From contig JACQZI010000023.1 in the NCBI GenBank assembly GCA_016207825.1, positions 133,169 through 197,168 on the forward strand: a stretch of 64,000 bases of DNA, given 5' to 3'. Below the pieces are notes generated by a model. The model saw only the letters and a list, made by a program, of their open reading frames with translations. It had not been told where the DNA came from and made no database searches. This document shows positions 101-50,770 of this stretch, piece by piece. The translations under genes were made by a program, and so were the position numbers. The first letter of the stretch is position 1. Each line of letters begins with the position of its first letter. The stretch is from Planctomycetota bacterium (GTDB lineage: Bacteria > Planctomycetota > MHYJ01 > JACQXL01 > JACQZI01).

Positions 101-156
101 GAAAACTTTACAGCCACTGCCACAAAGGCAGAAAAAGCAATATCAAGTATTTAATT

Positions 157-181
157 CTTAGTGTCTTGGTGCCTTCGTGGC
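157..181. repeat. Degenerate 8-bp-period microrepeat
   Basis: Three variants of an 8-mer (CTTAGTGT, CTTGGTGC, CTTCGTGG) follow one another in the gap between clpB and the B12 riboswitch. A CTGCCACAAAGGCAG-like segment lies just to the left. This is one of many microrepeat arrays in the window. No coding potential is credible here. Confidence 0.5.
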
Positions 182-204
182 AAAATATTTTCCTTTATAA
201 TTAT

Positions 205-590: not shown

Positions 591-712
591 TTTACAGCAG
601 GATTTAACTGATTAAACTGATTATCCGCCCCTCTACGAGGGACTCCCTATAATCGGGGGTCCCCGAAACAAAGTTGAGCGGGGCTAAATCCGTTTAATCC
701 CGTTGTTAAAAT
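591..712. repeat. Pair of inverted 9-bp-period microrepeat arms around a palindrome
   Basis: The left arm (591-623) has GATTTAACT and GATTAAACT in tandem. The right arm (685-712) is its approximate reverse complement (AAATCCGTT, TAATCCCGTTGTTAAAA). Between them lies a GC-rich palindromic stretch (CCGCCCCTC ... GAGCGGGG). The same arm sequence recurs, again inverted, around the GxxExxY gene at 1347-1375 and 1832-1869. No gene lies in 66-715 other than the leader elements listed. Confidence 0.55.
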
Positions 713-715
713 ACT

Positions 716-1342
716 ATGAGATTGTTACTGATTCGTCACGGAGAGATCGATTTCAACCGCCAGGCGCGTTACTGCGGCATTACCGATGCCCCATTGAATA
801 AGCACGGCATTGCCCAGGCAAGGGACCTCCGGTCATTCTTCAGCAAAGAGAAAGTGGACGCCGTTTATTGCAGTCCGCTTACAAGGACTAAACAGACCGC
901 GCGGATTCTTTTCGGGCGGCGGCGCATCACTCTCGAACCGGCCCTCAAAGAGATTAACTTCGGCAAGATGGAATGCATGTCCGTAAAAGAGGTGAAAGAA
1001 AAGCATCCGGTCTTTTACCGCACCTGGCTCACCAATCTTAACACCGCCAAGGCGCCGGGAGGAGAAAGTGTTAACCAATGCCGAAAGCGCGTCTGGAAAT
1101 TCATCAATTCGCTTATCAGGAACAGGAAAAATGCCCATAAAACCATCGCGCTTGTCATGCACGGCGGCCCGATTAAAATCTGGATAAGCGATATCATGAA
1201 ATGCGGGAAAGACGGATTCTGGATGTTCCATCCGGAGCCGGCTTCGGTTACTACCGTGGAATATGATAAGGGCAGATTCTGCCTTTTAGGGAGGAACTTT
1301 TATTATGCGAAAAACTATCCGGGCTTCGGCTGGAGGCCGTGA
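716..1342 (+). CDS. cobC: Histidine phosphatase, probable alpha-ribazole phosphatase CobC
   Basis: The 208-residue protein opens with MRLLLIRHGE, the RHG phosphohistidine motif of the histidine phosphatase superfamily (catalytic His8). A second conserved histidine lies in VMHGG (His149) and the SPLTRTKQTA segment lies near residue 60. In B12 biosynthesis CobC removes the 5'-phosphate from alpha-ribazole phosphate or from adenosylcobalamin phosphate. The sequence alone only says phosphatase of this superfamily. The role is assigned because it is the first gene after the B12 riboswitch and is followed by cobU, cobT and cobS. The start follows a microrepeat arm without an obvious strong Shine-Dalgarno sequence. 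Confidence 0.8.
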   Translation: MRLLLIRHGEIDFNRQARYCGITDAPLNKHGIAQARDLRSFFSKEKVDAVYCSPLTRTKQTARILFGRRRITLEPALKEINFGKMECMSVKEVKEKHPVFYRTWLTNLNTAKAPGGESVNQCRKRVWKFINSLIRNRKNAHKTIALVMHGGPIKIWISDIMKCGKDGFWMFHPEPASVTTVEYDKGRFCLLGRNFYYAKNYPGFGWRP

Positions 1343-1346
1343 TATA

Positions 1347-1869
1347 TTAAACAACAGGATTAAACTGATAAAACGGAATTGACCAATCTGTTTAATCATA
1401 TCTAATAATAGAAGGATTTTATGCAACACAAAGCGAAAGAGGGTCTTATTTATGAAGAGTTAACACACAAAATCATTGGCGCGGCTATGGAAGTCCACCG
1501 TGAACTCGGACCGGGATTTATCGAGAAAACATACGAAAACGCCCTGATTATAGAATTGAAAGAGCGAGGAATCCCCGCGCAAACACAGAAGAAAATAACG
1601 GTGCACTATAAAAACCATCTTGTCGGTGAGCATCTTATTGATATTCTGGTGGACGAGAAAGTAATCCTGGAACTGAAAGCGGTTGAAGAACCGGGCAAAG
1701 CGCATGAAGCCCAATTAATATCATATTTGAAAGCGGCTAATATTAAAATAGGATTGCTTATAAACTTTTCAAAGGAGTCGCTGGATTGGAAACGGATTAT
1801 GCTGAAGGATAATCTTTCCGTAAAGCATTAATTAAATCAGCTTAATCAGTTAAATCCAGTTGTTAAAAT
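1347..1869. mobile_element. Inverted microrepeat arms enclosing the GxxExxY gene (putative cassette)
   Basis: The left arm (1347-1375, AACAACAGGATTAAACTGAT) and the right arm (1832-1869, AATCAGTTAAATCCAGTTG) are approximate reverse complements, matching at about 20 of 24 aligned positions. Within the right arm the units TTAAATCAG, CTTAATCAG and TTAAATCCA show a 9-bp period. They bracket only the GxxExxY gene, which is foreign to the B12 pathway. Reading this as an inserted unit is inference; there is no transposase. Confidence 0.4.
1421..1831 (+). CDS. GxxExxY family protein (PD-(D/E)XK nuclease-like)
   Basis: A 136-residue protein with the family signature GPGFIEKTYENAL near residues 30-42 and a C-terminal IDILVDEKVILELKAV...AQLISYLKAANIKIGLLINF. 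The LVDE...ELKA pattern is the PD-(D/E)XK-type core annotated as PDDEXK_3. These small proteins are common as scattered orphans in planctomycetes, cyanobacteria and Bacteroidetes, and their function is not established. It sits on the coding strand inside the B12 cluster between cobC and cobU, bracketed by inverted microrepeat arms. It is probably an insertion that the operon tolerates, not a B12 gene. AAGGATTTT precedes the ATG as ribosome-binding site. Confidence 0.85.
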   Translation: MQHKAKEGLIYEELTHKIIGAAMEVHRELGPGFIEKTYENALIIELKERGIPAQTQKKITVHYKNHLVGEHLIDILVDEKVILELKAVEEPGKAHEAQLISYLKAANIKIGLLINFSKESLDWKRIMLKDNLSVKH

Positions 1870-1870
1870 T

Positions 1871-2413
1871 ATGAAAAAAGTAACATTAATACTGGGTGGC
1901 GCCCGTAGCGGGAAAAGCCACCACGCCGTGGAGATGGCCAAGCAAATTAACAAGCGCACAGTATTCCTGGCAACCCTGGAATTCCATGACGCGGAAATGG
2001 ATGAGCGGATAAAACTCCATAGAAAACACCGTCCGGCTGAATGGCAGACCGTCGAGGAAGGCAAATACATAGATAAAATACTTTTTAACCTGAAAGGACT
2101 TTGCGACGTGGTGATAATAGACTGTGTGACCAATCTTGTCTCCAACCTTTTGATAGAATTGGATGATGAGGATAAAGTCGTGGAAGAAATTAAAAGTATC
2201 GTGCAAGTAATGTCCGATATGGATTGCCATATAATACTGGTCTCTAACGAGGTCGGCGAAGGAATCGTGCCGGAAACACCGCTGGGCCGGGAATTCCGCG
2301 ATATCGCCGGCATGGTAAACCAGCTGATTGCCAAGCACGCTGATGAAGTGATTCTTATGTGCGCCGGGATACCCCTGTGCATAAAAGGCGGAAAAAAGAA
2401 TGAGCCTGCTTGA
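1871..2413 (+). CDS. cobU: Adenosylcobinamide kinase / adenosylcobinamide-phosphate guanylyltransferase
   Basis: The protein has 180 residues, full length for CobU. The Walker A motif GGARSGKS is at residues 9-16 and the segment HRKHRPAEW at 50-58 contains the expected guanylylated histidine (His50). CobU phosphorylates adenosylcobinamide and then attaches GMP, giving adenosyl-GDP-cobinamide for CobS. The start follows the right arm of the microrepeat pair. The last 14 bases overlap the cobT start, suggesting translational coupling. No adenosyltransferase (CobA/PduO type) and no CbiB gene is present in the window, so the cluster handles the late, salvage part of the pathway. Confidence 0.93.
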   Translation: MKKVTLILGGARSGKSHHAVEMAKQINKRTVFLATLEFHDAEMDERIKLHRKHRPAEWQTVEEGKYIDKILFNLKGLCDVVIIDCVTNLVSNLLIELDDEDKVVEEIKSIVQVMSDMDCHIILVSNEVGEGIVPETPLGREFRDIAGMVNQLIAKHADEVILMCAGIPLCIKGGKKNEPA

Positions 2414-3485
2414 TACGGCCATAAGCAAAATAGGCGGATTGGATAATGCGGCAATGGCGCGCGCCCGGAAGCGGCTTGATAATTTAACAAAACCGCAAGG
2501 GAGCCTGGGCAGGCTGGAAGAACTCGCCAAACAAATCACTGGAATTACCGGGAAAGAAAACCCGCCGCTTAAAGACAAAGTTATCGTCACCATGGCCGGC
2601 GACCACGGCATAACCGAGGAAAAAGTGAGCGCTTACCCTAAAGAAGTAACGCCCCAGATGGTTTATAATTTCCTCTCCGGCGGCGCGGCAATCAATGTCC
2701 TGGCAAGGCAGGCCGGCGCAAGGGTGGTTGTCGTGGATATGGGGGTTGCTACGAAAATACAAGCTCAACAGTTCAATAGTTCAATGGTTCAAGGGTTAAG
2801 ATTTAAGGATTGTAAAATTGGATTAGGAACAAAGAACTTTGCCAAAGGCGCGGCAATGACCAAAGAAGAAGCGATTCTGTCTATAGAAAAAGGAATCGCT
2901 GTCTTTGAAGAAGAATTCCGCAAAGGGCTTGATATCTTGGGGACAGGTGATATGGGCATTGGGAACACCACCCCGAGCGCCGCGATTATTTCGGTCATCT
3001 CCGGCAAGCCGGTTGATAAGATAGCCGGACGCGGCACAGGACTTAACGATACCGGGCTTTTACATAAAATCGCGGTTATTAAAAAAGGGATAAAGATTAA
3101 CAAGCCCAATCCGCGCGATGCGATTGATGTCCTGGCGAAAGTCGGCGGATTTGAAATCGGCGGGCTTACCGGCGTAATATTGGCCGGGGCGGCGCATCGG
3201 GTTCCGGTTGTTATAGACGGATTTATTTCCACCGCCGCAGCGATGCTTGCGGTTAAATTAGCGCCAAAGTCCAAAGATTTCCTCATCTCCAGCCATTGCT
3301 CGGCGGAAAACGGGCATAAATGCGCACTTGAATACATGGGAATGAGGCCGTTGCTGGATTTAAACATGCGGCTGGGTGAAGGCACGGGCGCGGCGCTGGC
3401 GATGAGCCTGGCCGAAAGCGCTATCAGGATTATGACGGAAATGGCGACATTTGATAGCGCAGGGGTGGCAAAGAAAAACAAGTAG
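2400..3485 (+). CDS. cobT: Nicotinate-nucleotide:dimethylbenzimidazole phosphoribosyltransferase
   Basis: The 361-residue protein matches CobT throughout: KPQGSLGRLEELA near residue 31, AGDHGITEEKVSAYP near 67, GDMGIGNTTP near 182, and the catalytic glutamate in LGEGTGAA (Glu327). It transfers ribose phosphate from nicotinate mononucleotide to the lower-ligand base, making alpha-ribazole phosphate. Residues about 122-134 (QAQQFNSSMVQGL) are encoded by an 8-bp-period microrepeat (2765-2800) and look like an in-frame insertion in a surface stretch. Whether this costs activity cannot be told. It overlaps cobU and is followed by cobS. Confidence 0.95.
   Translation: MSLLDTAISKIGGLDNAAMARARKRLDNLTKPQGSLGRLEELAKQITGITGKENPPLKDKVIVTMAGDHGITEEKVSAYPKEVTPQMVYNFLSGGAAINVLARQAGARVVVVDMGVATKIQAQQFNSSMVQGLRFKDCKIGLGTKNFAKGAAMTKEEAILSIEKGIAVFEEEFRKGLDILGTGDMGIGNTTPSAAIISVISGKPVDKIAGRGTGLNDTGLLHKIAVIKKGIKINKPNPRDAIDVLAKVGGFEIGGLTGVILAGAAHRVPVVIDGFISTAAAMLAVKLAPKSKDFLISSHCSAENGHKCALEYMGMRPLLDLNMRLGEGTGAALAMSLAESAIRIMTEMATFDSAGVAKKNK
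2765..2800. repeat. In-frame 8-bp-period microrepeat inside cobT
   Basis: Units CAGTTCAA, TAGTTCAA, TGGTTCAA and GGGTTAAG follow each other. The reading frame of cobT stays open across them. This is the same type of array as the intergenic one at 7041-7111. Confidence 0.6.
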
Positions 3486-3551
3486 CGCGCAGTGAGTAGT
3501 GAGTAGAGAGGGATAATTCCTCGCTGCTCGTTGCTCGCTACCGGCTACTGG
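3486..3551. repeat. Inverted 7-bp-period microrepeat element between cobT and cobS
   Basis: The left arm reads GTGAGTA, GTGAGTA, GAGAG. The right arm reads GCTGCTC, GTTGCTC, GCTACCG, GCTACTG. The right arm is roughly the reverse complement of the left, around a GGATAATT centre. It fills almost the whole cobT-cobS gap. Confidence 0.6.
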
Positions 3552-7112: not shown

Positions 7113-7817
7113 ATGTATATATCATCGTGGAGCGGCGGAAAAGACAGTTGCTTGGCTTGTTATAAAGCAATCCAGTCCGGTTATAGGATTTCGCATCTGG
7201 TAAACTTTATCTCGGCTGAGTTTAAACGGGTCAGCTTCCACGGCACGCCGGCAAAGTTGGTCCAAAGGCAAGCGGATGCTATCGGAATCCCTTTATTGCA
7301 GAAAGAGGCCCATCCCGAAGACTACGAGCCATCTTTTAAGGAAGCGGTTAACCAATTGCGAATGGCGAATGGCGAATGGGGAATTAAAAATTCCGAATCC
7401 CGAATCCCCAATTCCGCACTTGAGGGCATGGTTTTCGGTGATATTTATCTGCAGGAACACCGGCAATGGACAACGCGCGTCTGCAACGAACTCGGCATAC
7501 AAGCAATAGAGATGCTCTGGGGCATGCGTACGGAAGATATACTGGATGAATTCATCGGCCTTGGATTCAAATCGCTTATCATTTCCGCCAAGGCATCGCT
7601 TATTGGCAAGGAATGGGTCGGTAAACTAATCAGCCATGAATTCATAAACTATCTTAAAAATGAAAAGCCCCATGTGGACATCTGCGGGGAAAACGGGGAA
7701 TACCACACGTTCGTATTTGACGGGCCGTTATTCAAGAAACCTGTAAAGGTTGCAAAACAGGAGGTGATAGAAAAAGAAACGCCTTATGGCAAATGGTATT
7801 TTTTGGATATGGAATAA
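7113..7817 (+). CDS. DUF71/COG2102 PP-loop ATPase, predicted B12-salvage subfamily
   Basis: A 234-residue PP-loop protein with SSWSGGKDSC at residues 4-13 (adenylation loop), GTPAKLVQRQADAIGIPL near 44-61, and a C-terminal CGENGEYHTFVFDGP motif typical of DUF71 (diphthine-ammonia ligase-like) proteins. Eukaryal and archaeal members amidate diphthine. A bacterial subgroup clusters with B12 genes and has been predicted to act in B12 salvage, possibly on cobinamide amides. The position between btuD and the BtuB-like receptor supports that subgroup. Residues about 82-102 are encoded by an in-frame inverted microrepeat (7357-7418), an insertion the family does not normally have. Confidence 0.8.
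   Translation: MYISSWSGGKDSCLACYKAIQSGYRISHLVNFISAEFKRVSFHGTPAKLVQRQADAIGIPLLQKEAHPEDYEPSFKEAVNQLRMANGEWGIKNSESRIPNSALEGMVFGDIYLQEHRQWTTRVCNELGIQAIEMLWGMRTEDILDEFIGLGFKSLIISAKASLIGKEWVGKLISHEFINYLKNEKPHVDICGENGEYHTFVFDGPLFKKPVKVAKQEVIEKETPYGKWYFLDME
7357..7418. repeat. In-frame inverted 7-bp-period microrepeat inside the DUF71 gene
   Basis: GCGAATG, GCGAATG, GCGAATG and GGGAATT form the left arm; CCGAATC, CCGAATC, CCCAATT and CCGC the right arm, around AAAA. The arms are reverse-complementary. The frame remains open and adds about 20 residues (RMANGEWGIKNSESRIPNS). Confidence 0.7.
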
Positions 7818-12742: not shown

Positions 12743-13456
12743 ATGAACGAGCTAATTGTTCCGGAATATTTGACGAATAATCTGGATTGGATAAGGCAGA
12801 AAATCGAGAAATCGGCTCGTAAGGTAAACAGGGATCCTTCGGAAATTAAACTGATAACAGTTACTAAATACGCGGACATTGAAACCATCGGGTATTTACC
12901 AGCACTCGGACTCTTCGATTTAGGGGAAAACAAAGTTCAGGAACTGGTAAAAAAAGCAGAGGCTTTACCGGATTCGGTAACCTGGCATATGATTGGTCAT
13001 ATGCAGACTAATAAAATCAAGAGGGGGTTGCCTTTTTTTAATTACCTGCACTCGCTGGACAGCTTGCATCTGGCAGAGGCGCTGGAAAACGAAGCTAACA
13101 GGATCAATAAGCAACTTAATGTTTTTATCCAGCTTAATATAAGCGGGGAAGAATCGAAATACGGGATAAAACCGGAAGAGCTCTTTAATTTTTACGGGAA
13201 AGCAAAGGATTATTCCCATCTGAAAATTATCGGCTTGATGACCATTGCACCAGAAGCAACTAACCCTGAAGAATCCCGCCCCGTATTCCGAAAACTCCGG
13301 GAATACCTCGACGAATTGAAAACTAAAATGACTGGTCAGGCAAGAAATGATTTCTGCCACCTGTCAATGGGCATGACCCAGGATTATGATGTCGCGATAG
13401 AAGAAGGGGCTACGTTCATCAGAATCGGGACAGCTCTTTTTAAAGAAGCGGCCTAA
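12743..13456 (+). CDS. yggS: YggS/PLPBP family pyridoxal-phosphate homeostasis protein
   Basis: About 237 residues of the PROSC/YggS single-domain alanine racemase fold. It has the PLP-lysine motif LITVTKYADIE (lysine in TK), FDLGENKVQELVKKA, WHMIGHMQTNKIK and the C-terminal LSMGMTQDYDVAIEEGATFIRIGTALF, which binds the phosphate. These proteins keep free PLP in balance and are not racemases. The start at 12743 is chosen because a promoter occupies 12695-12723. The two residues after LSMGM read TQDY where SxDY is usual, a mild change. It probably heads the transcription unit through the kinase gene. Confidence 0.92.
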   Translation: MNELIVPEYLTNNLDWIRQKIEKSARKVNRDPSEIKLITVTKYADIETIGYLPALGLFDLGENKVQELVKKAEALPDSVTWHMIGHMQTNKIKRGLPFFNYLHSLDSLHLAEALENEANRINKQLNVFIQLNISGEESKYGIKPEELFNFYGKAKDYSHLKIIGLMTIAPEATNPEESRPVFRKLREYLDELKTKMTGQARNDFCHLSMGMTQDYDVAIEEGATFIRIGTALFKEAA

Positions 13457-13480
13457 ATAACTTTTATATCTTGTAATATT

Positions 13481-16354
13481 ATGCCTCGTTTAATAGTAGA
13501 AAAAGGCCCTGATAAAGGCAAATCCATCCGCATCAGCGGAAACGACACCATTGTCATTGGACGGGAAACTACCGCTAACCTGCGCTTAAGCGACATCATG
13601 GCTTCGCGCATGCACTTCCGGATAGAATTCCGCGCGGACGGCGGTTATTACCTGATAGATTTGAACAGCATGAACGGCACCTTTGTTAACGGACAGAAAG
13701 TCAAAGAACGCGCACTAAAACTGGGAGACAAGGTACAAATCGGCGAAACTCTTTTCACTTTTATGGGAGATATCGAAGCCCAGAAACAGGGACCCATCGG
13801 TCAGACTATCGGCGGATACACCATCATGGAACGCGTCGGCCGCGGCGGCATGGGCACGGTTTATAAAGCACTCCAGATTTCTTTAAATCGCGTGGTAGCG
13901 TTAAAGCTCCTCTCGGATGAATTGGTAAAGGATAAAACATTCATCAACCTCTTTGTGCAGGAAGCCCGCGCGGCTGCCCAGCTTAACCACCCCAATATCG
14001 TCCAGGTTTACGATGTCGGTTCCGACAAAGAAGTTTACTTTTTCTCCATGGAATATGTGCCGGGTGCCAGTCTGCAGGATATACTTTCCAAACGTAAGAA
14101 ACTACCGCCGGAAGTGGCCGTCGGCATTGTTTTCCAAGCGGCCCAGGGACTGGAATACGCGGAAAAGAAAGGCATCGTCCACCGCGATATCAAACCTGAT
14201 AATCTTATGATGGGGGAAAACGAAATAATTAAAATAGGAGACCTCGGCCTGGCAAAAAGCCTCAAAGCCCCTTTCGCCGAAGAACAGGCAAGCAGCGTTT
14301 TCGGCACTCCCCATTACGTCGCGCCTGAACAGGCAACGGGAAAGCCGGTTGACCACCGGGCGGATATATATTCGCTCGGCTCTACTTTTTACCGCATACT
14401 TACCGGCATAACGCCATATTCCGGGTCTAGCGTCAAAGAAATCATCGCCAAGAAAATCAAGGATGACCCGACCCCCATTAAGCAATTGGAACCCGGCTTA
14501 TCCAGCGAACTCAGCAAAATAATTGATAAAATGATTAAAAGGAATCCAGACGAACGTTTCCAGACTTTTTCCGAAGTCCTGAAAGCGCTGGAAACGATTA
14601 AAAGCGGAGTCATTAGCACACGGGCAACATCCACTCCGGATGACACCTCCAAAAAAGAACCCTCTAAAGAGGAAGGCACGCTGCCGAAAAATCTGATAGA
14701 TAGCATTGTGTTACCGGTGATACTAACCGTACTTTCCGGATTAAGCCTGTTCCTTATAGTCTGGCATCATTATAAAAATATCGGGCCTGGATTTGAGCCT
14801 ACGGTTATTCCCCAGAACGGGTTCCAGCCGGATGAAAAACAGATTATTGCGGAAATTGATAAATTGGACACGGCTTTAAAAGACACCCCTCAAGATGATG
14901 TCGAACTCCTCATGGAGCTTATTACACGCTATGAGAAATTAACAGAAAAATGCCGCAATATAAAATTATCAATTGTGGTCCAGGTAAAACTAGCTGACCT
15001 AGACAAACGTTTTAACCAGATAAGCGAACCGGTTAGGCAAAAATATAAAGAAAAGAAATCATCCGAGCTTTTTACCGCCTTAACGGAAGAGACAAGCCAC
15101 GAACGCCAGCAGATTATTACGCTTGCCAAAACAGGCGACGTCGATTTCTATATAAAAAAATGGATTGAAGGATGGGAAAATTTCAAGCTTAAATATGCCG
15201 GCACAGCTTCGGTTGCCCATGCGGATGAACAAATACGGCAAGCAAACCTGTTTAAAGGGCGCATCGAAAACAGCCGGGAACATTATGAAAAACTTCAGCC
15301 TCAGGTTAAAAACGCGGTTAAAGAGCATCGTTTCAAAGAAGCATATGATATAACGACCGGTTTTATAAATGATGAAAAATATCAGGATACTCTCTATAAC
15401 ATAGTCGCCTCGGAATTGCTCCTTGAGATAAAAAACCGCGGGTTGGATGATTTCCAGGAAACCCGTAACGAAGCGGTAAAACTTATGGCGGAAGAAAAGC
15501 TGGAGGAGGCCAAGAAGTTACTGGAGAAAAAACAGGGGTTTTACGGCGAACCGGAACTAGAACAGATGGTCCGGGATAATTTGGCTGATATAGAACAGAA
15601 AATACAACAACAAAAAAACACGGCATTTCAAAAGCTACTTGGGATCGATGAAGGAATATTCTACCGGACATATCCTGATGTCCTTATGCTGGTCCACGAA
15701 AGCGATTTGTCCAATCCGGATAAACTTCTCAAAGAAGCGGAATCGCTTTTGAATATAATTACTGTTAAAACACCTGATTATAACGAGCGGAAAAAAGATA
15801 TCCTTTATGAACTCACTTGCGAAATCCGAATAATGAACCAGCTGAAACTCAATGCCGCGCAGTTTAAGGGTAAAAAATCCCTCAGAAACCAGAAAATAAG
15901 CGATATCTCCAACAGCGGTATTGTCCTGCAGAACGGGGAACTGGTTCTCTGGCGCAAAATCTCATCTCCGGAACTTTTCGATTTAATCAGCAAAGGATGG
16001 AAACTTTCCAGCAGCGAAACTCTTAAATTAGCAATTCTTTGCCTAAAAAGGGGAGGCATGATAAACGAGGCGAAAACACTCCTGAACACGGCCTTAAAAA
16101 ACAATCAGGACAAAGAAGAAACGGCTGTTATAAATAAATATCTCGGCAAGCTTGAGGAATCCGTTCCGATGAGGGAAAAAGACGCTGATTTTATTTTCCG
16201 CCAAGCAAATGCCCAGTTTAATGACCAAAACTATTTTAGCGCCCTCAAAAGCTATAACCTGATTAAATACCGTTTTGTCGATACCAAGCTATACCGGCAG
16301 GCGGAAAATTTCATCGATAAAAAAATCATCGAAATTGAGGAGCGACTTAAATGA
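13481..16354 (+). CDS. FHA domain - Hanks-type Ser/Thr kinase - membrane segment - coiled-coil protein
   Basis: 957 residues. An FHA phosphothreonine-binding domain (about 1-95; IVIGRETTANLRLSD, SRMHFRI, NGTFVNG) is followed by a complete kinase domain (about 112-375): glycine loop VGRGGMGTVYKA, VALKLL, HRDIKPDNLM, DLGLAK, GTPHYVAPEQA. A single membrane segment lies near 407-425 (VLPVILTVLSGLSLFLIV), then a long helical region to the end. FHA at the N-terminus of a kinase suggests autophosphorylation-dependent self-binding; the C-terminal part may sense or scaffold in the periplasm. The stop overlaps the start of the phosphorylase gene (ATGA). Confidence 0.9.
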   Translation: MPRLIVEKGPDKGKSIRISGNDTIVIGRETTANLRLSDIMASRMHFRIEFRADGGYYLIDLNSMNGTFVNGQKVKERALKLGDKVQIGETLFTFMGDIEAQKQGPIGQTIGGYTIMERVGRGGMGTVYKALQISLNRVVALKLLSDELVKDKTFINLFVQEARAAAQLNHPNIVQVYDVGSDKEVYFFSMEYVPGASLQDILSKRKKLPPEVAVGIVFQAAQGLEYAEKKGIVHRDIKPDNLMMGENEIIKIGDLGLAKSLKAPFAEEQASSVFGTPHYVAPEQATGKPVDHRADIYSLGSTFYRILTGITPYSGSSVKEIIAKKIKDDPTPIKQLEPGLSSELSKIIDKMIKRNPDERFQTFSEVLKALETIKSGVISTRATSTPDDTSKKEPSKEEGTLPKNLIDSIVLPVILTVLSGLSLFLIVWHHYKNIGPGFEPTVIPQNGFQPDEKQIIAEIDKLDTALKDTPQDDVELLMELITRYEKLTEKCRNIKLSIVVQVKLADLDKRFNQISEPVRQKYKEKKSSELFTALTEETSHERQQIITLAKTGDVDFYIKKWIEGWENFKLKYAGTASVAHADEQIRQANLFKGRIENSREHYEKLQPQVKNAVKEHRFKEAYDITTGFINDEKYQDTLYNIVASELLLEIKNRGLDDFQETRNEAVKLMAEEKLEEAKKLLEKKQGFYGEPELEQMVRDNLADIEQKIQQQKNTAFQKLLGIDEGIFYRTYPDVLMLVHESDLSNPDKLLKEAESLLNIITVKTPDYNERKKDILYELTCEIRIMNQLKLNAAQFKGKKSLRNQKISDISNSGIVLQNGELVLWRKISSPELFDLISKGWKLSSSETLKLAILCLKRGGMINEAKTLLNTALKNNQDKEETAVINKYLGKLEESVPMREKDADFIFRQANAQFNDQNYFSALKSYNLIKYRFVDTKLYRQAENFIDKKIIEIEERLK

Positions 16355-48170: not shown

Positions 48171-49559
48171 CTACACTTGCTCAGGCTCTTTCCTGAAGAC
48201 TATCAGCTGTGCTTTGGAAATGGCCTCTCTTAAAGACCCTATTTTTACCGGGGTTAGTTCAGGAGAATGACTCAATCCCTTGGCATTCTTGATTGGCATC
48301 ATAATTTGCTTAAACCCGAGGCGCTGGGTTTCATTAATGCGCTGGTTTATCTGGTTTACCCCGCGAACCTCCCCGGTCAGGCCAATCTCCCCTACCATCA
48401 CGGTTTCATTGGATATGGGTTTGTTCTTGATAGATGATACTATCGCCAAAGCTATCGCCAAATCCGCCGCCGGTTCGTCTATCTTTACCCCGCCCACGAC
48501 ATTGACAAAGACGTCCTGGTTGGAAAACGACAGTCCGATACGCCGTTCCAATACCGCCAGTATCATCAGGACACGGTTAAAATCCACCCCGCTTACCCGC
48601 CGACTCGGCACGGAATAAAACGACGGCGCAGTCAATGCCTGTATTTCAACCAGAAGCGGCCTGGTTCCGATAATCGTGGGCATAACGACCCTGCCGGCAG
48701 AGGTATCGTCATGGTCTCCGATAAATAGCGCCGATGGATTGGTCACCTCCTGCAGGCCTTCCTTATCCATATCAAAAAGCCCGATTTCGTTGGTAGAGCC
48801 GAAACGATTCTTGACAGCGCGCAGTATTCTAAACGACTGGAACCGGTCGCCTTCAAAATATAATACCGTATCAACCATGTGCTCAAGCGTCCTCGGACCG
48901 GCAAGAGAGCCTTCCTTGGTAACGTGTCCGATAAGGAATAAAGCAATACTCTTACGTTTGGCCAGATACATGAGTTCCAGGGTAGATTCACGCACCTGGG
49001 TAACTGTGCCGGGCGTGCCGGGAAGCTGGGGTTTATATATCATCTGAATAGAATCTATAATCAGGAAATCCGGATTGTATTCTTCGACATAGCCTCCGAT
49101 AACGTCCAGGTTGGTCTCCGAAACCAAGAGAAGATTGTCGGAATTGGTGCCTAACCGCTCGGCGCGGATTTTGGTCTGGTAGATGGATTCCTCGGCGCTT
49201 ACATATAACACCTTTTTGCCGAGTTCGCAGAGCTTGCCGGAGACCTGAAGGATAAGAGTGGATTTGCCGATGCCCGGGTCGCCGCCGATAAGCGTGGCAG
49301 AGCCGGAAACGATGCCGCCGCCCATAATCCTATCCAACTCATTAATGCCGGTAGAGACGCGTTCTTTATCTATGCTTTTTATTCGGCTCACCGGCTGGGG
49401 CTTTTCCCCGGAAAGAATCGGGCGGTCGGTCAGGGCGGTCGGGGTAATGACTTCCTCAATCAGGCTTCCCCAAACGCCGCAATCCGGGCATTTGCCGAGC
49501 CACTTGCCGGTTTCATAACCGCATTGCTGGCAGCGAAAGGCTTTCTTCAACTTCTTCAT
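48171..49559 (-). CDS. radA: DNA repair protein RadA (Sms)
   Basis: 462 residues with all RadA parts: zinc finger RCQQCGYETGKWLGKCPDCG (about 9-28), Walker A GGDPGIGKSTL (about 92-102), the RadA-specific KNRFGSTNEIGLF (about 250-262), and the Lon-like C-terminal domain. RadA is a DnaB-like branch-migration motor in recombination. The length is standard. It follows the four-helix-bundle gene on the same strand across a microrepeat arm (49560-49592). Confidence 0.95.
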   Translation of the reverse strand: MKKLKKAFRCQQCGYETGKWLGKCPDCGVWGSLIEEVITPTALTDRPILSGEKPQPVSRIKSIDKERVSTGINELDRIMGGGIVSGSATLIGGDPGIGKSTLILQVSGKLCELGKKVLYVSAEESIYQTKIRAERLGTNSDNLLLVSETNLDVIGGYVEEYNPDFLIIDSIQMIYKPQLPGTPGTVTQVRESTLELMYLAKRKSIALFLIGHVTKEGSLAGPRTLEHMVDTVLYFEGDRFQSFRILRAVKNRFGSTNEIGLFDMDKEGLQEVTNPSALFIGDHDDTSAGRVVMPTIIGTRPLLVEIQALTAPSFYSVPSRRVSGVDFNRVLMILAVLERRIGLSFSNQDVFVNVVGGVKIDEPAADLAIALAIVSSIKNKPISNETVMVGEIGLTGEVRGVNQINQRINETQRLGFKQIMMPIKNAKGLSHSPELTPVKIGSLREAISKAQLIVFRKEPEQV

Positions 49560-49592
49560 AAGTTACAAGTAAAAATGAGCAATGAACAATTA
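49560..49592. repeat. 7-bp-period microrepeat, left arm around the four-helix-bundle gene
   Basis: AGTTACAAGT, then ATGAGCA, ATGAACA, ATTAAGA at 7-bp spacing. The arm on the other side of the gene (49978-50005) has the reverse-complementary words. Confidence 0.55.
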
Positions 49593-49607: not shown

Positions 49608-49982
49608 TTATTTGGCGTTCTTTTTCAGGTTCTGCTTAGAAGTCTTAACACTTTTCCCGAATATTTTCTTAATTTCCAAGGATTCCTGTATTAACTTATC
49701 AATATCCTCCGATTTGTTTAATTCAGAATCCTTTAATAATCTTAACCAAAGATTAGTTTCTTTTGCTTCCTTAAAAGAAATACTTAATTTATAGGTAAAA
49801 TCCTCTTTACTGAACGCAACAGTGGCTTCCTCATAATTCGCCGCGATAGAAGTTGCCGAGCGCAATAATTGGCGGCCAATTTCCTGCGCCGCCATCTCAC
49901 GCGGGAGCTTTCTGACCAATTCAATTACACTCAAAGCAAACTTATAAGTTCTATCCGAAAGGTCGTTTTCAATACTGCTCAT
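49608..49982 (-). CDS. Four-helix-bundle protein (23S rRNA-intervening-sequence family)
   Basis: 124 residues, all helical, with the family pattern YKFALSVIELVRKLPREMAA, QLLRSATSIAANYEEA and FSKEDFTYKLSISFKEAKET. The family was named from genes inside 23S rRNA intervening sequences and includes the Avd accessory protein of diversity-generating retroelements. No reverse transcriptase is present, so this is an orphan member of unknown role, possibly nucleic-acid binding. Its ATG overlaps the rsmE stop (ATGA). It is bracketed by inverted microrepeat arms, like the GxxExxY gene. Confidence 0.88.
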   Translation of the reverse strand: MSSIENDLSDRTYKFALSVIELVRKLPREMAAQEIGRQLLRSATSIAANYEEATVAFSKEDFTYKLSISFKEAKETNLWLRLLKDSELNKSEDIDKLIQESLEIKKIFGKSVKTSKQNLKKNAK

Positions 49983-50005
49983 TGTTCATTGCTAATTGCT
50001 AATTG
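49978..50005. repeat. 7-bp-period microrepeat, right arm around the four-helix-bundle gene
   Basis: CTCATTG, TTCATTG, CTAATTG, CTAATTG in tandem. It encodes the last residues of RsmE (AISNEQ) and the start codon of the four-helix-bundle gene. Confidence 0.6.
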
Positions 50006-50770
50006 ATATTTAAGCATCGCCAGCATCGCCACGGCGGCGGTTTCCACCCTCAATATTCCGCCCACCGGCATCTGGACCGCCTTAAACCCGGCGGCCTTGG
50101 CCTTTTCCACTTCATCAGGCGAGAAATCGCCTTCCGGCCCGATGAGGTATAGTATCTTTACACACCCCCTACCCCCTCCCCGATTAGGTCGGGACTCCGC
50201 TGCCGCTACGCTTATTAGAGGGGAATATGTTATCAAATCATCTCCTTCGGGATAAGCTAAGAGTTTTATATTGTAGTCGTTTATTGTACCAAGTAATTTC
50301 GCAAATGGCAATATTTCCGCGATTTCCATAACGGTGGATTGGGATGATTGCCTGGCGGCCTCCACGGCTATCTTTTTCCAACGCTTAACCTTGTTTTCGC
50401 CGACGTCCCTGACGACACTGCGCCTGGTTTCCATGGGGATAAGCTTATTAAGCCCTAGTTCAGCGCACTTTTCCACCAGCCAGTCCATCCGGTTGCCTTT
50501 GGGAATAGCGACAGCAAGAGAGATATTAGTTGTTGGTTGTTGGTTGTTAGTTGTTGGCTCTTGCGGAATAATTTTTAGCTGTGTATTCTTGCCAAGCACA
50601 CTTATTTGCGCATGATGAATATTGCCGGATTTATCGAAGAGTTCCACCTTATCGCCGATTTTCAGGCGGAGAACCCGGCTAAGATGCAGGGACTGTTCTT
50701 CGTCAAGGGAGACCTCCGCTTCCGCGCCGGTAACGGGCGTATCTATGTAGAATCTATGAAGCCGTTTCAT
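49979..50770 (-). CDS. rsmE: 16S rRNA m3U1498 methyltransferase
   Basis: 263 residues of the SPOUT-class RsmE family: an N-terminal PUA-like part (LHLSRVLRLKIGDKVELFD), AIPKGNRMDWLVEKCAELGL, ETRRSV, WKKIAVEAARQSSQS and the SAM-binding knot LIGPEGDFSPDEVEKA near 205-220. It methylates U1498 in the ribosomal decoding region. Two in-frame additions are repeat-derived: TTNNQQPTTN (about residue 71-80, from 50527-50557) and about 24 residues (PLISVAAAESRPNRGGGRG core) from the palindromic repeat 50159-50224. It is longer than typical because of these. Confidence 0.9.
   Translation of the reverse strand: MKRLHRFYIDTPVTGAEAEVSLDEEQSLHLSRVLRLKIGDKVELFDKSGNIHHAQISVLGKNTQLKIIPQEPTTNNQQPTTNISLAVAIPKGNRMDWLVEKCAELGLNKLIPMETRRSVVRDVGENKVKRWKKIAVEAARQSSQSTVMEIAEILPFAKLLGTINDYNIKLLAYPEGDDLITYSPLISVAAAESRPNRGGGRGCVKILYLIGPEGDFSPDEVEKAKAAGFKAVQMPVGGILRVETAAVAMLAMLKYQLAISNEQ
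50159..50224. repeat. Palindromic repeat inserted in frame in rsmE
   Basis: CACACCCCCTACCCCCTCCC at the left and TATTAGAGGGGAA at the right enclose CGATTAGGTCGGGACTCCGC and a GCTACGC word. It is a longer relative of the hairpin after dapF (23876-23901). It is read through in the rsmE frame just before the SAM-binding motif. Confidence 0.6.
50527..50557. repeat. In-frame 7-bp-period microrepeat inside rsmE
   Basis: TTAGTTG, TTGGTTG, TTGGTTG, TTAGTTG, TTGG in tandem, translated on the minus strand as a T/N/Q-rich loop. Confidence 0.65.

Follow-up and report, generated by a model that had tools for sequence, protein, structure and literature searches.

The analysed stretch of DNA (hereafter the window; 64,000 nt, positions 133,169–197,168 of the forward strand of contig JACQZI010000023.1) belongs to a Planctomycetota bacterium (GCA_016207825.1) whose genome, here G000, comprises 2.89 Mb in 42 contigs and is 97.6% complete; all positions follow window numbering. 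Within its cob gene cluster, a GxxExxY gene lies between a cobC-like gene and cobU and is bracketed by two inverted arms, and a gene-less palindromic element with arms of the same family lies on the far side of the cobC-like gene (Table 1). An earlier sequence-only reading had described these as four related arms alternating plus, minus, plus, minus, with the first pair enclosing a palindrome; positions, order and palindrome (RNA/DNA folding z −4.5) were all confirmed. The kinship of the arms is visible in repeat pairs D1 (683–712 and 1840–1869, 87% identical), I1 (573–622 and 1835–1884) and I2 (688–710 and 1347–1369, 87% complementary). The local alignment score of the arm pair around the GxxExxY gene was 21, against a 99.9th percentile of 19 for random window pairs at the same spacing, and the gene ranked first by flank-pair score among the 54 open reading frames (ORFs) of the window (mean 10.7, s.d. 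2.8). A cobalamin riboswitch at 275–430 scores 28.3 bits, slightly under the Rfam gathering score of 31.5.

Table 1 Features of the cob locus and of other microrepeat elements in the window. G001 is a relative from the same genus as G000.
Feature	Position	Strand	Remarks
Gene-less arm pair, CACGAAG family	117–183		GCCACAAAGGCAG...TTGGTGCCTTCGTGGC; hairpin z −3.5
Left arm of gene-less palindromic element, same arm family as GxxExxY cassette	591–623	+	Element absent in G001
Right arm of gene-less palindromic element	685–712	−	Hairpin z −4.5; element absent in G001
cobC-like histidine phosphatase gene, left neighbour	716–1342	+	Host gene next to GxxExxY cassette
Left arm of GxxExxY cassette	1347–1375	+	AACAACAGGATTAAACTGATAAAACGG; ~9-nt units; absent at orthologous G001 site
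Inverted half-unit just inside left arm	1385–1398	−	Repeat pair I8
GxxExxY gene (PF13366 PDDEXK_3 / TIGR04256)	1421–1831	+	136 aa; intact PD-(D/E)XK active site
Right arm of GxxExxY cassette	1832–1869	−	Inverted copy of left arm; absent in G001
cobU, right neighbour	1871–2413	+	Host gene next to GxxExxY cassette
Microrepeat in frame inside cobT	2765–2797	+	GTTCAATAGTTCAATGGTTCAAG
Gene-less microrepeat palindrome, other unit family	3481–3548		cobT/cobS gap; hairpin z −5.3
3' arm of PF05635 cassette, inverted	49559–49590 (approximate)	+	L220
PF05635 four-helix-bundle (S23-type) gene, second cassette type	49608–49982	−	L220
5' arm of PF05635 cassette	49981–50012 (approximate)	−	AATTAGCAATTAGCAATGAACAAT

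Microrepeats of other unit families occur elsewhere in the window. In the cobT/cobS gap, G001 carries a different palindrome at the position of the G000 element, and inside cobT it has another microrepeat, GTTACAAGTTACAAG, in place of GTTCAATAGTTCAATGGTTCAAG. Besides the cobT repeat, microrepeats within ORFs were seen at 7352–7385 and 50524–50557. A simple periodicity scan of the window returned three near-perfect arrays; degenerate arms escape such a scan.

The GxxExxY protein of the window falls well within its family (PF13366, 147 bits against a cut-off of 22; TIGR04256, 151.7 bits against a cut-off of 35), in which E35, D74, E84xK86 and Q98xxxY102 are invariant or nearly so. No sequence match was found in the PDB. 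The AF2 model (pLDDT 91.7) gave as its best solved fold 4ic1 (SSO0001, a Cas4; Foldseek E 1.3e-4, VIA Z 9.6), ahead of lambda exonuclease, AddAB and RecE. By its residues and modelled fold, the protein is a Cas4/RecB-type PD-(D/E)XK nuclease; its catalytic residues are intact and it is probably active.

We compared sites between G000 and G001 (~86% nucleotide identity) by reciprocal flank searches, counting a site where the orthologous position was readable on one contig. The cob locus of G001 keeps the order cobC, cobU, cobT, cobS and lacks the 591–712 palindrome as well as the entire GxxExxY cassette, whose gene and two arms are missing together; nor is the cassette present in more distant outgroup cob loci. 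The sequence-only reading had proposed a non-autonomous cassette in which terminal inverted repeats enclose a nuclease-fold cargo, to be checked in relatives without the gene and at the flanks of other GxxExxY genes of the same genome, where we found inverted arms too, but of different sequence. Because the G001 site is empty and flanks elsewhere in G000 are armed, the cassette, its terminal repeats and its nuclease-fold gene stand; 'non-autonomous' and 'cargo' are doubtful, since the arm unit covaries with the nuclease subfamily (below).

Turnover of these cassettes is very fast. None of the 14 cassettes with a readable orthologous site (eight in G000 and six in G001) is shared between the two genomes. 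Six sites are cleanly empty (cob, L219, L214, L213, L280 and L109), one (L211) retains ~20 nt resembling the outer arm unit in an otherwise empty orthologue, and seven are occupied by another palindrome, half-repeat or cassette. These comparisons show gene and arms gained or lost as one unit, the presence/absence pattern of a mobile genetic element. At one of these seven sites, G000 has a gene-less ACGAAT pair opposite a G001 GxxExxY cassette with CACGAAAA arms, possibly through gene loss with the arms retained. A common-substring test revealed no convincing target-site duplication: matches of at least 7 nt were in slight excess (four observed, 1.3 expected), and the best candidate, CATAGAA, lies on both sides of L280, a G001 PF05635 cassette. 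A plasmid or phage vehicle was rejected: in eight plasmid records matches stayed below 60% identity, and there were no phage matches.

Several individual sites are recorded here in their own right. In the cob locus of G007 (L257 / L284), the position between cobC and cobU that the cassette occupies in G000 contains a lone half-arm, ACCGCAGAGGCGCAGAG. The G001 orthologue of the L211 site (L263) retains GTTAACTTGTAACTATAAAAGAGG, near-identical to the outermost right-arm unit in G000 and either a scar or a seed of an arm. At L293 (G000:C16:4229-5230), a lipoprotein-like gene lies between CACAAAG-type arms in a slot that holds a GxxExxY cassette in G001. In G001, the sites of L216 and L221 (L270 and L265) are taken up by two more families of gene-less palindromes, TCATTCTGAACGAAGTGAAGAATCTC and GGATTCCCGCTTTCGCGGGAATGACGG, and window positions 13280–13650 are the orthologous empty site of the L280 cassette.

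Arms accompany most GxxExxY genes. All eight such genes in G000 (six intact, two broken) have matched inverted microrepeats near their start and stop codons, in sequences that differ between loci (CACAGAGA, CACAAAGGCACGAAGG, CACAGAAAACACGGAA, ACGAATnnn, GGATTAAAC) and in a single design of a 7-nt core plus a 1–2-nt spacer, about three in a row. Across G000 and its relatives, the arm-pair score was at least 15 at 60 of 65 loci (cross-locus mean 11.4), and 38 of 77 named loci from many phyla scored above the 95% point set by 279 control ORFs taken from those loci. A hold-out set of 62 loci, with classification rules frozen beforehand, reached at least 15 at 41. At 91 of 140 loci, the arm's own partner ranked in the top 5%, with 7 expected. 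When all samples are taken together, roughly two thirds to three quarters of GxxExxY genes are armed, from Planctomycetota to Chloroflexota and Proteobacteria; armless genes form part of the relatives and of the wide and hold-out samples. The cassettes lie between protein genes rather than in 23S rRNA genes, and mostly run co-directionally with both neighbours (51/74 and 17/19). They are apparently a very widespread and undescribed kind of mobile gene cassette: nothing relevant on the GxxExxY family or the arm sequences was found in open-licence literature, and an earlier description may exist elsewhere.

The arm sequence is linked to the protein it encloses. Proteins ending in an xGIxR motif have arm cores ending in AG (CACAGAG, CGCAAAG, CACGAAG), and the remaining GxxExxY proteins have cores ending in AT or AA (CACAGAT, ACGAAT, GGATT). 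The contrast between subfamilies was 54:0 versus 6:34 in the first data set (p = 9e-20), which had itself served to draw up the two sets of classes after inspection, and 23:0 versus 2:14 in the hold-out set under unchanged rules (p = 8e-9), which lessens that concern and does not abolish it. One of the two hold-out exceptions (L340) has SF in place of the NF required by the regular expression and in other respects resembles the xGIxR class. The contrast holds within the single genomes G000 (three and three), G002, G011, G012 and G014, and, after control for GC difference, protein similarity tracked arm similarity (partial Mantel r 0.43, p = 0.002). Judged by this covariation, the arm unit was shown to follow the nuclease subfamily, even inside one genome. 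So tight a relationship suggests that the arms' own enzyme is the nuclease, although joint inheritance could produce it without recognition. L211 and L213 had suggested that local target sequence might be the template for arms; this was set aside, given that across hosts the arms go with the nuclease subfamily.

Arms also occur dispersed and without genes. The GGATTAAAC motif has 43 occurrences in G000 against four for a reversed-pattern control, and its close pairs are all convergent (plus then minus; eight, with none divergent), as are close arm pairs overall in the places read (17:0). The CACAGA[GT] double unit has a median of 32 occurrences in genomes with several GxxExxY genes (n = 27), against 0 in genomes without (n = 27); at least three matches were found in 25 and 2 genomes, respectively, a difference whose p value (1e-8) is a guide only because the genomes are related. 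One of those two GxxExxY-less genomes is a 63%-complete relative. Gene-less pairs fold well as RNA. By comparison, 591–712 is a derivative of the GxxExxY cassette that carries its arms but no gene, and such pairs are the putative non-autonomous form of the cassette.

A second gene family has the same cassette architecture, although its protein is unrelated. PF05635 is the family of the S23-type four-helix-bundle protein encoded in 23S rRNA intervening sequences. All 14 PF05635 genes of G000 (the one in the window and 13 others) lie between inverted microrepeats whose unit differs at almost every locus, and 21 of 23 readable PF05635 genes in relatives have such repeats too; arm and protein similarity are again correlated (partial r 0.25, p = 0.001). 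At the G001 site of the window cassette there is instead a gene-less CACAGAGA palindrome. One genome, G023, has 25 divergent PF05635 copies, several within long open frames. G-U-type changes are in excess in the S23 arms (84 versus 47, p = 0.0016) and show no such bias in GxxExxY arms (136 versus 145, 95 loci), from which we suggest that S23-type cassettes may be read as RNA and the GxxExxY type as DNA.

We favour, by a modest degree, a reading in which the gene and its arms form one mobile unit with the nuclease as the arms' cognate enzyme, a REP/RAYT-like system on a different enzyme. The nuclease would recognise the arms, probably when they fold back as single strands between genes, and would cut or resect them; replication and repair would then place copies of the unit at new intergenic positions and clear it from old ones, such cutting presumably driving the spread, and gene-less arm pairs would spread in trans. 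In function it would thus resemble REP/RAYT, a nuclease of restriction-endonuclease fold replacing the Y1 transposase. Three observations weigh against this reading: some GxxExxY genes are armless, no convincing target-site duplication was found, and S23-type cassettes are alike without encoding a nuclease, so that either their protein would have another part to play or a host enzyme would cut in both types. The broadest form of the proposal, in which a pan-bacterial (and archaeal) class of transposase-free cassettes uses a Cas4/RecB-like nuclease to propagate its own arms and gene-less copies, and the S23 type is a parallel non-catalytic branch that gave rise to 23S rRNA intervening sequences, is plausible and we put it forward tentatively.

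The G000 genome has no RVT_1 match, and its one Y1_Tnp trace is a broken fragment of 68 positions at another place; with neither a reverse transcriptase nor an intact Y1 transposase, two usual engines are removed, and both retro-mobility and a RAYT mobiliser were rejected. This counts against GxxExxY and S23-type genes being passive passengers, caught between the arms of one general mobiliser acting in trans (host replication or repair, or a transposase) while the nuclease serves an unrelated selfish or addictive role. Such a mobiliser would suit the presence of two unrelated protein families, plus a lipoprotein gene at one G000 slot, between arms, and of several unit families of one design; it sits poorly with an arm unit that follows the nuclease subfamily within a genome and with the near absence of CACAGA[GT]-family arms from GxxExxY-less genomes, and we consider it unlikely. 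We give very little credence to the view that the arms are an ordinary REP/RAYT system, or MITEs derived from some known insertion sequence, two copies of which happen to flank the GxxExxY gene by chance. Gene-less convergent pairs do resemble REPINs or MITEs; yet every GxxExxY gene of G000 is bracketed by arms that differ by locus and track nuclease class, the cassette moves as a unit, and the sole Y1 trace is degraded. The GxxExxY cassette itself has terminal inverted repeats and contains no transposase.

It is also conceivable, if improbable, that the cassettes are RNA-level elements of the 23S intervening-sequence kind, whose arms pair in the transcript so that cutting of the stem by RNase III separates the cassette mRNA from the rest of the operon transcript, with selection on the RNA hairpin and rare, incidental movement. 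Precedent comes from 23S rRNA intervening sequences, long suspected to be selfish or mobile, in which terminal inverted repeats enclose the S23p ORF and RNase III cuts the sequence out (PMC4990558), and co-directionality with both neighbours, the good RNA folding of gene-less pairs and the G-U-type excess of S23 arms point the same way. That excess could, however, also stem from strand-biased C-to-T change, the rapid turnover tells against this reading, and GxxExxY arms lack the bias, as expected of DNA-level repeats; on this negative asymmetry test we rejected RNA-stem selection for GxxExxY arms.

GxxExxY and four-helix-bundle genes are annotated in very many genomes without any function. Were they the engines, or the coded part, of matched-arm cassettes, a large share of unexplained intergenic microrepeats would be explained, the REP/RAYT problem would have been solved a second time and independently, and an origin would be offered for 23S rRNA intervening sequences. 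The arm–nuclease pairing permits specific and cheap tests of binding and cleavage.

Among known systems, the GxxExxY protein shares the fold and active-site layout of the Cas4, RecB and lambda exonuclease PD-(D/E)XK nucleases, but is far shorter, stands alone and occurs in a setting unrelated to CRISPR or recombination operons. Eukaryotic foldback (FB) elements have terminal inverted repeats of short tandem units with a gene or none between them; the cassettes described here are bacterial and archaeal, span ~0.1–0.6 kb and carry other genes, and we claim no homology. With the 23S rRNA intervening sequences of Coxiella and Leptospira they share a small ORF between terminal inverted repeats and, in part, the S23-type family itself, but they are intergenic in operons, number 14 of the S23 type in G000, have microrepeat arms and, in the GxxExxY type, encode a nuclease. 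In layout the GxxExxY system resembles REP/REPIN repeats and the REP-associated tyrosine transposases (RAYT), where an inverted pair of REPs always encloses the RAYT gene and further REP doublets are dispersed (PMC2817692, PMC3116915): the GxxExxY gene, too, lies between inverted copies of a dispersed palindromic repeat that recurs as intergenic inverted doublets. The gene between the repeats is a PF13366 nuclease and not a Y1 (HUH) transposase, and because the enzyme is unrelated we do not count the system as REP/RAYT; it differs further in its several diverged gene copies per genome, its fast gain and loss, and its arms, which are arrays of 7-nt cores and on reading showed no GT(A/G)G head followed by a near-perfect hairpin as in REPs.
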